Assembly: GCA_902565595.1 (NCBI GenBank)
Contig: CACFFD010000005.1
Span: 1-59,248, forward strand
Origin: Actinomycetota bacterium
GTDB lineage: Bacteria > Actinomycetota > Acidimicrobiia > Acidimicrobiales > UBA8592
DNA length: 59,248 nt
Direction: 5' to 3'
Below the pieces are notes generated by a model. The model was not told the origin of the DNA and did no database searches. It worked only from the letters and a program-made list of their open reading frames with translations. Positions 30,362 through 34,399 of the stretch are shown piece by piece. Position numbers and translations under genes: made by a program. Each line of letters opens with the position of its first letter. Position 1 is the stretch's first letter.

Positions 30362-31540
30362 CTATACGACAATATTGGAGTTTCTCAGATTGCTAATTTC
30401 GTTAGGGTCAAAACCTACTTCAGAAAGAATTTCATCCGTATGCTCCCCGTAAGCTGGTGCGGCGCTTGGCTCAACTTTTTTTTCAGCTGAGAAACTAGCT
30501 CCCTGCCGCGGGACGCGCATCTTCCCAATTGTTGGGTGAGTTACTTCTATAACTGCCTCTCTAGCTACCACATGAGGATCGCTAGATACCTCACTTGGGT
30601 CGAGGACGGGCACTGCGGGAACATCAGCATCTAAACATCGCTCCAGTACTTCGTCACTTGTAAATTCAGAAACCATTTGTGCAAATGCTTCATACCAATT
30701 TGTAAAATTTTTACTCCTATTAGAAGCTGACGAGAAACGACTATCGTCAGCTAGATCTTGTCGATTCAATGCTTTACAAACAGCGTTCCACTGCTTATCG
30801 GTTCCAGCAGTTACTGAAACCCATCCATCTTCCGTTGCGAAAAGTTGATAGGAGCCCAAGAGATTGGGAAAGTGCAAAGCATCACTATCGAGAAGAGTTT
30901 CGTGCATCATTACATCTGGCCAGTTAAAGGCAATATTCGCTTCAAACATGGAGATTTCTACGTGCTGGCCTTCTTTTGTATCGTTTCTTCGAAACAATGC
31001 TGCTGTTATCGCCTGTGCGGTAGTTAAAGCAGCGACCTTATCAGCAACCATCCCGCGAATAAGCATCGGCTCATTATTCGTCTTTTGTGCGCCAGCCCAG
31101 CCTGACAACGCTTGGATTACGGGGTCATAAACAGGTCGTTCACTATATGGCCCAGAGGCCCCAAATCCTGATGAAGAGACGTAAATTAACTCAGGAAGTG
31201 TATTGTGAACCTCTACATAGGAGAACCCTAAGCGATCCACCGCCCCTGGTCGAAAACCTTGAATAAAGACATCCGCATCCTTCAATAATCTCCAAAGCAC
31301 TTGTTTCCCGTCTTCAGTCATGAGATCAATACCTATGGAACGTTTGCCCGCATTTGCATTTGCGAACCAACCGGATATGCCGTTCTTGCGACTGCCATAC
31401 ATCCGGAGGTCATCTCCACCCGTCGTATTTTCGACCTTGACGATCTCTGCCCCCTGTGTTCCTAACAGATACGTAGCTCCAGGTACAGCGATCATTTGAC
31501 CAAGTTCTACAATCTTTATTCCCTCTAAAGGACCAGCCAT
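30362..31540 (-). CDS. CaiB/BaiF-type class III CoA-transferase
   Basis: A 392-residue family III CoA-transferase. The N-terminal pattern (LEGIKIVELGQMIAVPGATYLL), ANAGKRSIGIDL and FRPGAVDRLGF are diagnostic, and the catalytic Asp that forms the acyl anhydride is Asp167 in GMVADKVA. It transfers CoA between carboxylic acids without ATP; candidates include carnitine-like, bile-acid or 2-methylacyl substrates, and alpha-methylacyl-CoA racemase is a close relative. AAGGAG lies 4 nt before the ATG at 31540. It is the first gene of a two-gene minus-strand unit with the hydrolase. Confidence 0.9.
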   Translation of the reverse strand: MAGPLEGIKIVELGQMIAVPGATYLLGTQGAEIVKVENTTGGDDLRMYGSRKNGISGWFANANAGKRSIGIDLMTEDGKQVLWRLLKDADVFIQGFRPGAVDRLGFSYVEVHNTLPELIYVSSSGFGASGPYSERPVYDPVIQALSGWAGAQKTNNEPMLIRGMVADKVAALTTAQAITAALFRRNDTKEGQHVEISMFEANIAFNWPDVMMHETLLDSDALHFPNLLGSYQLFATEDGWVSVTAGTDKQWNAVCKALNRQDLADDSRFSSASNRSKNFTNWYEAFAQMVSEFTSDEVLERCLDADVPAVPVLDPSEVSSDPHVVAREAVIEVTHPTIGKMRVPRQGASFSAEKKVEPSAAPAYGEHTDEILSEVGFDPNEISNLRNSNIVV

Positions 31541-31730: not shown

Positions 31731-32261
31731 TCATCCATGGACGTAATGTGTTGGGTCCTTATCTGGATCTGCGGTTCTATTTACAGGACAATCATTGGCA
31801 ATATCGAGAACTGCTAAAAGCCTTCCCATCCCGAGACAAAAACCTATCAAAGCAAGAAGCTCAAGTATCTGCTGGTCTGTGAAGTTCTCTTTCACTTTTT
31901 CCCAATACTCCTCATCATCCTTTAGGGCTACGTGATCAAAGACAAAGCGTTCAGCCATTTCAGCAGCGAGCTTCTCTGGAACCGTGAAAGCCCCTATTTC
32001 TTCGTACTCAGATACCCGATGATATAGATCTTCTTCAAGTCCTTGCTGCATCGCCGATGCAGAGCGAGTATCCATTCATATATGGCACTCATTTATTTGT
32101 GCGATGCGCATGCGAGCGACCTCGCGCACACGAGTATCGAGAGAGATCTGTGTATAAAGCGCATTCCCTGCGATACCGATCCCTTTTGCAACATTTGTTT
32201 GTAACGCCCACATACGACTTCGTTCAAGACCTTCACCTTCGGGAATTGCGATACGTGCCAT
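31731..32261 (-). CDS. Candidate selenoprotein: AhpD/carboxymuconolactone decarboxylase-like, CxxU (in-frame TGA)
   Basis: Reads as one 176-residue protein if the TGA at 32078-32076 is selenocysteine 62. Residues 1-61 and 63-176 lie in the same frame and together make one alkylhydroperoxidase/CMD-like protein: RVREVARMRIAQINECHI, then the TGA, then MDTRSASAMQQGL. Relatives have the redox pair Cys-x-x-Cys exactly here (pattern AQINxCxxCxxxR), so the TGA replaces the second Cys and gives Cys59-His-Ile-Sec62. A 7-bp hairpin begins 13 nt after the TGA, as a bacterial SECIS should. The ATG at 32261 has GAGGAG upstream. AhpD-like proteins reduce peroxides or peroxiredoxin partners. Main alternative: a nonsense mutation in a pseudogene. 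If the TGA is read as a stop, only a 61-residue fragment would be made. Confidence 0.85.
32046..32062 (-). promoter_or_regulatory. Putative bacterial SECIS stem-loop
   Basis: On the coding (minus) strand the sequence after the TGA has 13 nt, then CTGCATC, GGC and GATGCAG: a perfect 7-bp stem with a GGC triloop. The loop lies 20 nt after the TGA and opens with G, which fits the known bacterial SECIS rules (a loop about 16-37 nt downstream of UGA with a G in the first two loop positions). It lies inside the coding region, as bacterial SECIS elements must. Confidence 0.75.
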
Positions 32262-32350
32262 GAGGTCTCCTCTCTAAACGGATTTTCTGATGAATACAGA
32301 CTAGGTTTAGCTTAGCCCATGACAGATTTTTGAGAAAGACAAACTGGCTT

Positions 32351-33019
32351 GTGACAGAATTTGATTTACAACAGGTAGACCACCTCCTGACAACTACACG
32401 TGCAGTAAGGAAACGCCTGAACTTGGAAAAGCCAGTTCCGAGAGAATTAATCCTTGATTGCGTCCGTGTCTCAACCCAGGCTCCCGCAGGTGGAAATTAT
32501 CAGAAATGGCGTTGGGTGATCGTCGATGATCCAGAGAAGAAAAGGGTGATAGCTGAGGCATACCGTGAGGCTTATGCCCCATACATCGATCAGCAGAAAG
32601 GGGCTGTAGCATCTAAGGCCCCTGAAAATTCGACAATTGGTAAGATCATCTCTTCAAGTGATTATTTAGCAGAAATACTTGAAAGGGTTCCTATCCTAGC
32701 TATTCCCTGCTCTCTCGGAAGTCCGGAAGATATGGAAGGAGGACTGGGAGGAGGTACCCAAGGGTGGTGGGGCTCCGTTCTACCTGCCGTTTGGAGTTAT
32801 ATGCTTGCGGCTCGCGCTAGAGGACTAGGAACTGCATGGACGACATTGCATCTGCGCTATGCGCGTCGCGTTGGTGAAGAACTCGGGATTCCTGAATCAG
32901 TAACGCAGCTGGCATGTATACCTACGGCCTATTACACAGGGGATGATTTTCGGCCTGGAACCAGAAAACCAGCAGAGAGTGTTACCTACTGGAATCATTG
33001 GAAAGATACTGAGATTTAA
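32351..33019 (+). CDS. Nitroreductase family oxidoreductase (paralogue 2)
   Basis: A 222-residue nitroreductase-like FMN protein: TTTRAVRKRLNLEKP (residues about 14-28), QAPAGGNYQKWRWVIV and AARARGLGTAWTTLHL match paralogue 1 at 26975. The open frame extends 7 codons to a TTG at 32330; the GTG at 32351 gives the same N-terminal length as the paralogue and is preferred. It is transcribed divergently from the selenoprotein gene, sharing a roughly 90-bp gap, so a common redox or peroxide-related function or regulation is possible (inference). The stop is 4 bp from a convergent chorismate-mutase gene. Confidence 0.85.
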   Translation: MTEFDLQQVDHLLTTTRAVRKRLNLEKPVPRELILDCVRVSTQAPAGGNYQKWRWVIVDDPEKKRVIAEAYREAYAPYIDQQKGAVASKAPENSTIGKIISSSDYLAEILERVPILAIPCSLGSPEDMEGGLGGGTQGWWGSVLPAVWSYMLAARARGLGTAWTTLHLRYARRVGEELGIPESVTQLACIPTAYYTGDDFRPGTRKPAESVTYWNHWKDTEI

Positions 33020-33487: not shown

Positions 33488-34399
33488 ATGATCCCTAAAG
33501 ATGAAACATTCAATGGAACTTGGCCTTTCCAGCCCCATTTCTGCGAAGCTGCTGGCTTTAGCCAACATTACGTAGATATCGGGGAAGGCGAGGTAATCAT
33601 CTGTCTACATGGTGAACCTACTTGGGGGTACCTTTATCGAAACATGATCCCACCCTTGGCTGAGAATAACAGGGTGATAGTTCCTGACCATATGGGCTTT
33701 GGAAAGAGTGAGACCCCCTTAGACCGTGAGTACACACTGAAGTCACACACTGAGAACTTGTCTGCGCTTATTGATGAGCTCACATTAGATCAGATTACTT
33801 TTGTTATGCAGGATTGGGGAGGCCCGATAGGCACAGCTTTCACAGTTCGGCATCCAGAGAAGGTCAAACGTCTTGTATATATGAATACCGTTGCTGGGTA
33901 TGGAGTCGTTTCTGAATCGGTAACGCCAATAAATCAGTCACCTTGGTTCAAATGGATAGGTGAAGGTCTTGAGTCCGGTCGGACTGAACAAGTATTGCGC
34001 AACGCAGGGTCAACTGTTTTATCTATTATGAAAATTATCGGATTCCAGAATTCAAGCGTTATTGATGATACTTGGATCGATGCATATAGCTCGCCATTTC
34101 CAAGCTATGAAAGTTCAATCGGCGCATATGAATTTCCTATTGATGCTTATCTTGGTCGAATAGTCGACTATGTTCTTGAGGGCGCTGAGGGAGTCCCAAA
34201 TCTGAAATCAAAACCAGCGATCCTTCTTGAAGGACTCGAAGATCGAGCTATTCCTCCGGATCGTGCAATAGAAGGTTTCCGCTCACTGTGGCCTGATGAG
34301 AAAATTATTGAGTTGGAAGGTGTTGGTCATTTCTGCCAAGAGGACGCTCCGGATCTTCTTGTTTCTTATATTCAAGAGTTTCTAAAGGTGAATCCATAA
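33488..34399 (+). CDS. Haloalkane dehalogenase-like alpha/beta hydrolase (HLD-I type)
   Basis: A 303-residue protein very close in motif content to DhlA-type haloalkane dehalogenases. It has CLHGEPTWGYLYR (oxyanion hole), PDHMGFGKSETPLDREYT, the nucleophile elbow FVMQDWGG with Asp and the halide-binding Trp, the acid in LEGLEDRAIPPD, and the base His in GVGHFCQED. The expected reaction is hydrolysis of a carbon-halogen bond to an alcohol plus halide. No ribosome-binding site is visible before the ATG at 33488. The gene ends in TAATG overlapping an 11-codon mini-frame before an acyl-CoA synthetase. Fluoroacetate or epoxide hydrolysis are alternatives. Confidence 0.85.
   Translation: MIPKDETFNGTWPFQPHFCEAAGFSQHYVDIGEGEVIICLHGEPTWGYLYRNMIPPLAENNRVIVPDHMGFGKSETPLDREYTLKSHTENLSALIDELTLDQITFVMQDWGGPIGTAFTVRHPEKVKRLVYMNTVAGYGVVSESVTPINQSPWFKWIGEGLESGRTEQVLRNAGSTVLSIMKIIGFQNSSVIDDTWIDAYSSPFPSYESSIGAYEFPIDAYLGRIVDYVLEGAEGVPNLKSKPAILLEGLEDRAIPPDRAIEGFRSLWPDEKIIELEGVGHFCQEDAPDLLVSYIQEFLKVNP

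Follow-up and report, generated by a model that had tools for sequence, protein, structure and literature searches.

The window, which is the whole stretch of 59,248 nucleotides that was analysed, comes from an actinobacterial MAG of 1.46 Mb that is 63% complete. Its minus strand carries a gene with one in-frame TGA, lying between a divergent nitroreductase-family gene and a CoA-transferase gene. The features of the locus are listed here by position.

30362..31540, minus strand: CoA-transferase family III gene, downstream of the selenoprotein gene; a conserved neighbour in the genus
31731..32261, minus strand: predicted CMD/AhpD-fold selenoprotein gene, 176 amino acids with selenocysteine (Sec) as residue 62; length and frame are kept in 18 orthologues
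31733-31731, minus strand: terminal stop TGA
32046..32062, minus strand: predicted SECIS hairpin within the coding sequence, 6-bp stem CUGCAU/AUGCAG, loop CGGCG, 19 nt past the UGA
32064..32066, minus strand: Arg66, at the position of AhpD His137 and PA0269 His55; Arg in 41 of 41 sequences of alignment A3
32076..32078, minus strand: UGA codon, predicted selenocysteine U62, second position of the C-x-x-U pair; UGA in every orthologue, a Cys codon in distant homologues
32085..32087, minus strand: Cys59, predicted resolving thiol paired with U62 in CxxU; invariant in alignments A1 and A3
32121..32123, minus strand: Glu47, equivalent to AhpD Glu118 and PA0269 Glu36 (PMC3141380), at the AhpD spacing of 12 residues ahead of Cys59; does not vary in A3
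32261, minus strand: ATG start
32266..32272, minus strand: likely ribosome-binding site (AGGAG-like) upstream of the ATG, predicted from the sequence
32330..33019, plus strand: gene of the nitroreductase family, arranged head-to-head with the selenoprotein gene; it matches BluB and iodotyrosine deiodinase weakly, and its listed start is TTG
33488-34399: hydrolase resembling haloalkane dehalogenases, with the motifs HGEPTW and QDWGG; its place two genes away from the selenoprotein gene is conserved

As the initial annotation had proposed, a single gene is split here by one in-frame TGA, with both parts in the same frame; its coordinates, frame and residues were exact. The frame has 176 residues and the TGA is codon 62, where it takes the place of the second Cys of a CxxC motif (C59-H-I-U62) and aligns with Cys in distant homologues. 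When the TGA is read through, the product matches the Pfam CMD family PF02627 above cut-off (33.3 bits against 23), and the UGA falls within the matched stretch, residues 33-78. All 41 relatives match PF02627 at E ≤ 0.001. A scan of the window showed that 31731-32261 is the only long frame with a single internal TGA lying wholly in otherwise unannotated DNA. The near-identical loci belong to Acidimicrobiaceae/Acidimicrobiales MAGs, for which a marine origin is suggested by the isolate names.

The UGA is conserved. Eighteen of the 20 genomes in the GTDB family bear an orthologue (74-99% identity), and all 18 have TGA at codon 62, in agreement with the earlier argument that a chance stop at this codon is improbable. 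In a second genome collection, 19 orthologous loci were found, all with TGA; two of them, at 67-69% identity, belong to a clade further away. The other disruptions that had been named as a refutation were seen in none of the orthologues. Neither TGC nor TGT occurs at codon 62 in the sister genomes, and Cys at this position is confined to less closely related sequences. Judged from these alignments, the UGA at codon 62 is coding and is conserved.

The genome also carries much of the machinery expected for Sec insertion. SelA (370 bits), SelB (294 bits) and a tRNA-Sec (68.7 bits) with a UCA anticodon are all present in the source MAG, on one contig (C1). Thus, of the four genes that had been proposed as a check, selA, selB and selC are found in the same genome; a search for selD gave no hit in this MAG (G000, 63% complete) and hits above cut-off in 11 of the 20 family genomes, the near-identical G012 among them. 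The SelD proteins of relatives (L067, L071, L075) are predicted selenoproteins themselves, with a UGA within the motif HGAGUGCK.

Three other readings of the UGA have to be weighed. Viewed alone, one UGA in one MAG contig might be a nonsense mutation in a pseudogene or a miscalled TGC/TGT. Independent assemblies however share the UGA within an intact frame, not only in the 18 orthologues but also in two further paralogue groups; frame and length continue past it, and synonymous sites vary on both sides while the protein is kept. These observations refute a pseudogene or sequencing error, which is left with a negligible likelihood. In the window an ATG follows the UGA immediately (TGA ATG), as it would if translation stopped and re-initiated to make two polypeptides. 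In relatives codon 63 is CTT, CTA, CTG, ATT or CAG, so the re-initiation start is not conserved; in addition, the CxxC centre would be divided between the two products, and the Cys homologues are continuous. Two separate products are therefore very improbable. An open frame would also result if UGA encoded another amino acid genome-wide, but TGA ends 6 of the 33 window genes checked, and the window scan found no second long frame interrupted by TGA in otherwise unannotated DNA. The residue aligned with the UGA is Cys rather than Trp or Gly, and SelA, SelB and tRNA-Sec are present, which together make a change of genetic code extremely remote. A selenoprotein is the preferred reading, and by these comparisons the gene almost certainly encodes a genuine one.

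A hairpin 19 nt past the UGA has the properties of a bacterial SECIS. Of 170 degenerate positions in 20 orthologues, just six codons show no synonymous variation, and these are contiguous and lie within codons 67-73; the mean synonymous difference in the rest of the gene is 0.53-0.57. Numbered from the U of the UGA, the stem pairs C17-G33 to U22-A28 and closes a CGGCG pentaloop. In an alignment of 24 Sec forms, four of the six stem pairs have changed on both sides and 96.5% of cells pair. The covariation score, 0.399, was reached by none of 500 shuffles (0.172 for shuffled alignments) and also exceeds that of every slid version, and RNAalifold predicts the identical helix unprompted. By the model given in a 2026 review (PMC13188914), a bacterial SECIS has a stem of 4-16 bp, a loop of 3-9 nt, an MFE ≤ -7.5 and a G within the first two loop positions, and lies 16-37 nt from the UGA; the window hairpin has 6 bp, loop CGGCG with G second, a 19-nt distance and -8.8 kcal/mol. 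Folding of the single 51-nt sequence from the UGA showed no stability excess over dinucleotide shuffles (z 0.33); the evidence for the structure is therefore comparative.

The comparison with Cys forms is the most direct. Stem pairing is 97.6% in 41 distinct Sec forms as against 35.4% in 16 Cys forms from within the family, a contrast uncorrected for relatedness. The Sec forms hold 5.9 of 6 pairs where 3.2 are expected under a synonymous-codon null, whereas the Cys forms hold 2.1 where 1.7 are expected. All 41 Sec forms have a loop of the form N-G-[G/U]-N-N, in six different sequences, each with G second followed by G or U. One Cys form (L112) and one Sec form (L116) encode nearly the same peptide, RAASAM.QGL, and only the Sec form has the hairpin letters. 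Together these point to selection on the RNA itself: the hairpin is, as far as the aligned sequences tell, maintained as a SECIS only where the UGA is present.

The two states have exchanged repeatedly. On a 67-row tree the Sec/Cys state needs six changes, at least five of them forced by supported branches; on this tree Sec and Cys appear to interchange at least 5-6 times. SelA co-occurrence was recounted on verified Sec and Cys forms only, after four matches with a terminal TGA had been reassigned to Cys. Of the 19 Sec-form genomes 18 have a SelA match, as do 8 of the 14 Cys-form genomes (Fisher p 0.026, uncorrected for relatedness); the one Sec-form genome that gave no SelA match, G210, is a 630-contig MAG. 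Candidates G228, G182, G087 contig 13 and G143 were rejected as TGA-holding forms, since they are Cys proteins in which TGA serves as the terminal stop, as were L148-L150 from elsewhere in the phylum, also Cys proteins ending in TGA. A scan of viral contigs found no relatives of the gene.

Two further CxxU paralogue groups occur in the genus, a type 2 with CPIU (~40-45% identical) and a type 3 with HDCxTU (~30%). The type 2 gene (L098-L106) is found in many genus members beside a FadD-like ligase and an SDR; it was not found in the source MAG, which is incomplete. The source genome does carry a type 3 copy, L163 (G000:C13:16600-17400). Type 3 (HDC-Y/H-T-U; L163, L019, L028-L030) has a covarying hairpin of its own, UCUAGC-AGUU-GCUAGA or UCUGGC-AGUU-GCCAGA. 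Two more cysteines, C142 and C158, never vary within Sec types 1 and 2 but do so in the wider family; they may have an extra redox or structural role.

The fold of the protein was modelled by AlphaFold from 41 sequences with a pLDDT of 87.2, superseding a model from 15 close sequences (pLDDT 73.6) that was poor around the active site. The model matches PA0269, Atu0492, other AhpD-like proteins and Bmp8; against the PA0269 chains the TM score is 0.63-0.83 depending on normalisation. E47, R50, N57, C59, C/U62, R66, G146 and R147 are among the residues invariant in all 41 sequences. In M. tuberculosis AhpD the counterparts of E47, C59 and U62 are Glu118, Cys130 and Cys133; where AhpD has His137, this protein has Arg66. 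Across the AhpD-like structures compared in PMC3141380, the two Cys and the His are invariant and were rated the most essential residues. Of the features of an AhpD-like peroxidase, the redox pair (as CxxU) is present, and so is the relay Glu (Glu47), 12 residues ahead of the first Cys. The relay His four residues past the second Cys is absent, with Arg in 41 of 41 sequences. The label "AhpD-like" given by the initial annotation thus holds for the fold, the CxxU pair and the Glu and not for the proton-relay His. As its residues indicate, the subgroup keeps the fold and redox pair and lacks one defining feature of AhpD-like peroxidases.

Neighbours in the genus are the divergent nitroreductase, which is conserved, the haloalkane-dehalogenase-like hydrolase, an acyl-CoA ligase, the CoA-transferase and an SDR. 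These suggest catabolism of an organic acid or a halogenated compound; the matches of the neighbouring genes are below curated cut-offs, and the block is not common to the more distant Sec forms. No ahpC was found among the nearest neighbours that were examined. The selenoprotein gene, in the gene order of the Acidimicrobiales MAGs, also occurs in L089 (NYXO01000043.1), a record titled Euryarchaeota archaeon that is likely mislabelled or mis-binned.

Taken together, a CMD/AhpD-fold selenoprotein with a Sec62 redox centre is the overall explanation, to which we assign a probability of about 95%. By established bacterial biology, SelA would make Sec-tRNA(UCA) from selenophosphate, and SelB carrying this tRNA would bind the hairpin and insert Sec. 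By analogy with AhpD, the redox centre would consist of two residues, Sec62 as attacking selenol and Cys59 as resolving thiol; it might reduce peroxide or another electrophile, speculatively a halogenated or quinone-like metabolite, and would be re-reduced by a cellular dithiol system. Since an invariant Arg takes the place of the relay His, the protein is best described as a redox enzyme that uses Sec as its nucleophile, and very probably is one; AhpD-type peroxidase activity is plausible only.

Two more specific functions can be set against this general one. The protein might work as a true AhpD-type peroxidase or as an adaptor that recycles AhpC. The fold and the E / CxxC arrangement are those of PA0269 and other AhpD-like proteins, Sec suits peroxide reduction, and PA0269 itself reduces H2O2 weakly (PMC3141380), but the relay His that is invariant in those structures is replaced by an invariant Arg, and the nearest neighbours examined include no ahpC. 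This function is possible and on balance somewhat doubtful, and peroxide as the physiological substrate is held equally tentatively. Alternatively Sec62 could attack a halogenated metabolite, as in a reductive dehalogenase, by comparison with the CMD-fold debrominase Bmp8. Bmp8 (6ohi/6ohj) is among both the profile and the fold matches and also lacks the relay His in the profile alignment, and the conserved neighbours include the hydrolase with HGEPTW and QDWGG and the nitroreductase that weakly matches iodotyrosine deiodinase. Against it, identity to Bmp8 is only ~15%, and the neighbours, their matches below curated cut-offs, are absent around more distant Sec forms; a dehalogenase is quite improbable. 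A broader proposal is a distinct CMD subfamily in which Sec and Cys interchange, with Sec in Acidimicrobiales, and in which the relay His was traded for Arg in favour of non-peroxide selenol chemistry, for example removing halogens reductively from marine metabolites; it is unlikely. The general reading as a Sec-nucleophile redox enzyme is the one retained here.

In an entire genus of marine actinobacteria, ordinary annotation will split or truncate this gene, which falls outside every curated NCBIfam model. Since Sec and Cys forms coexist in one bacterial order, with the SECIS solely in Sec forms, the family provides a clean natural system for Sec/Cys exchange, and it is suited to testing what selenium adds without the usual catalytic histidine. 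The results support selenium use by marine Acidimicrobiales; in the open literature searched, no report of selenoproteins was found for this group or for Acidimicrobiia.

Among curated models, no NCBIfam selenoprotein model reaches its cut-off for this protein. The closest, NF053654 (GroundWater_YciW (seleno)protein), matches 41 of 41 family members, but the window protein scores 41.4 bits against a cut-off of 310, over residues 32-141 only, and is not a member. Among known structures, PA0269 and Atu0492 share the fold (TM up to 0.83) and the CxxC pair, and in PA0269 the Glu is also 12 residues upstream; they carry Cys where the family has Sec, and His where it has the invariant Arg. Bmp8 shares the fold and CxxC and, in the profile alignment, also has no His at the relay position, but it is a Cys-only protein from another organism and pathway. 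The closest precedents are selenoproteins from marine metagenomes, mentioned in the initial annotation and confirmed in two studies: CMD domain-containing selenoproteins from the Sargasso Sea in 2005 (PMC1088965) and AhpD-like 1 and 2 selenoproteins from the Global Ocean Sampling in 2008 (PMC2398784). CxxU AhpD-like/CMD selenoproteins also appear in the 2026 review (PMC13188914). Like the present gene, the Sargasso and Global Ocean Sampling proteins have CxxU, a COG2128 or PF02627 domain, a marine origin and a downstream SECIS; the comparison is by description rather than alignment, and the descriptions consulted do not assign them to Acidimicrobiales. The type is thus not new: selenoproteins of the CxxU AhpD-like/CMD kind have been on record since 2005-2008, and the gene described here is a further member, in marine Acidimicrobiales.
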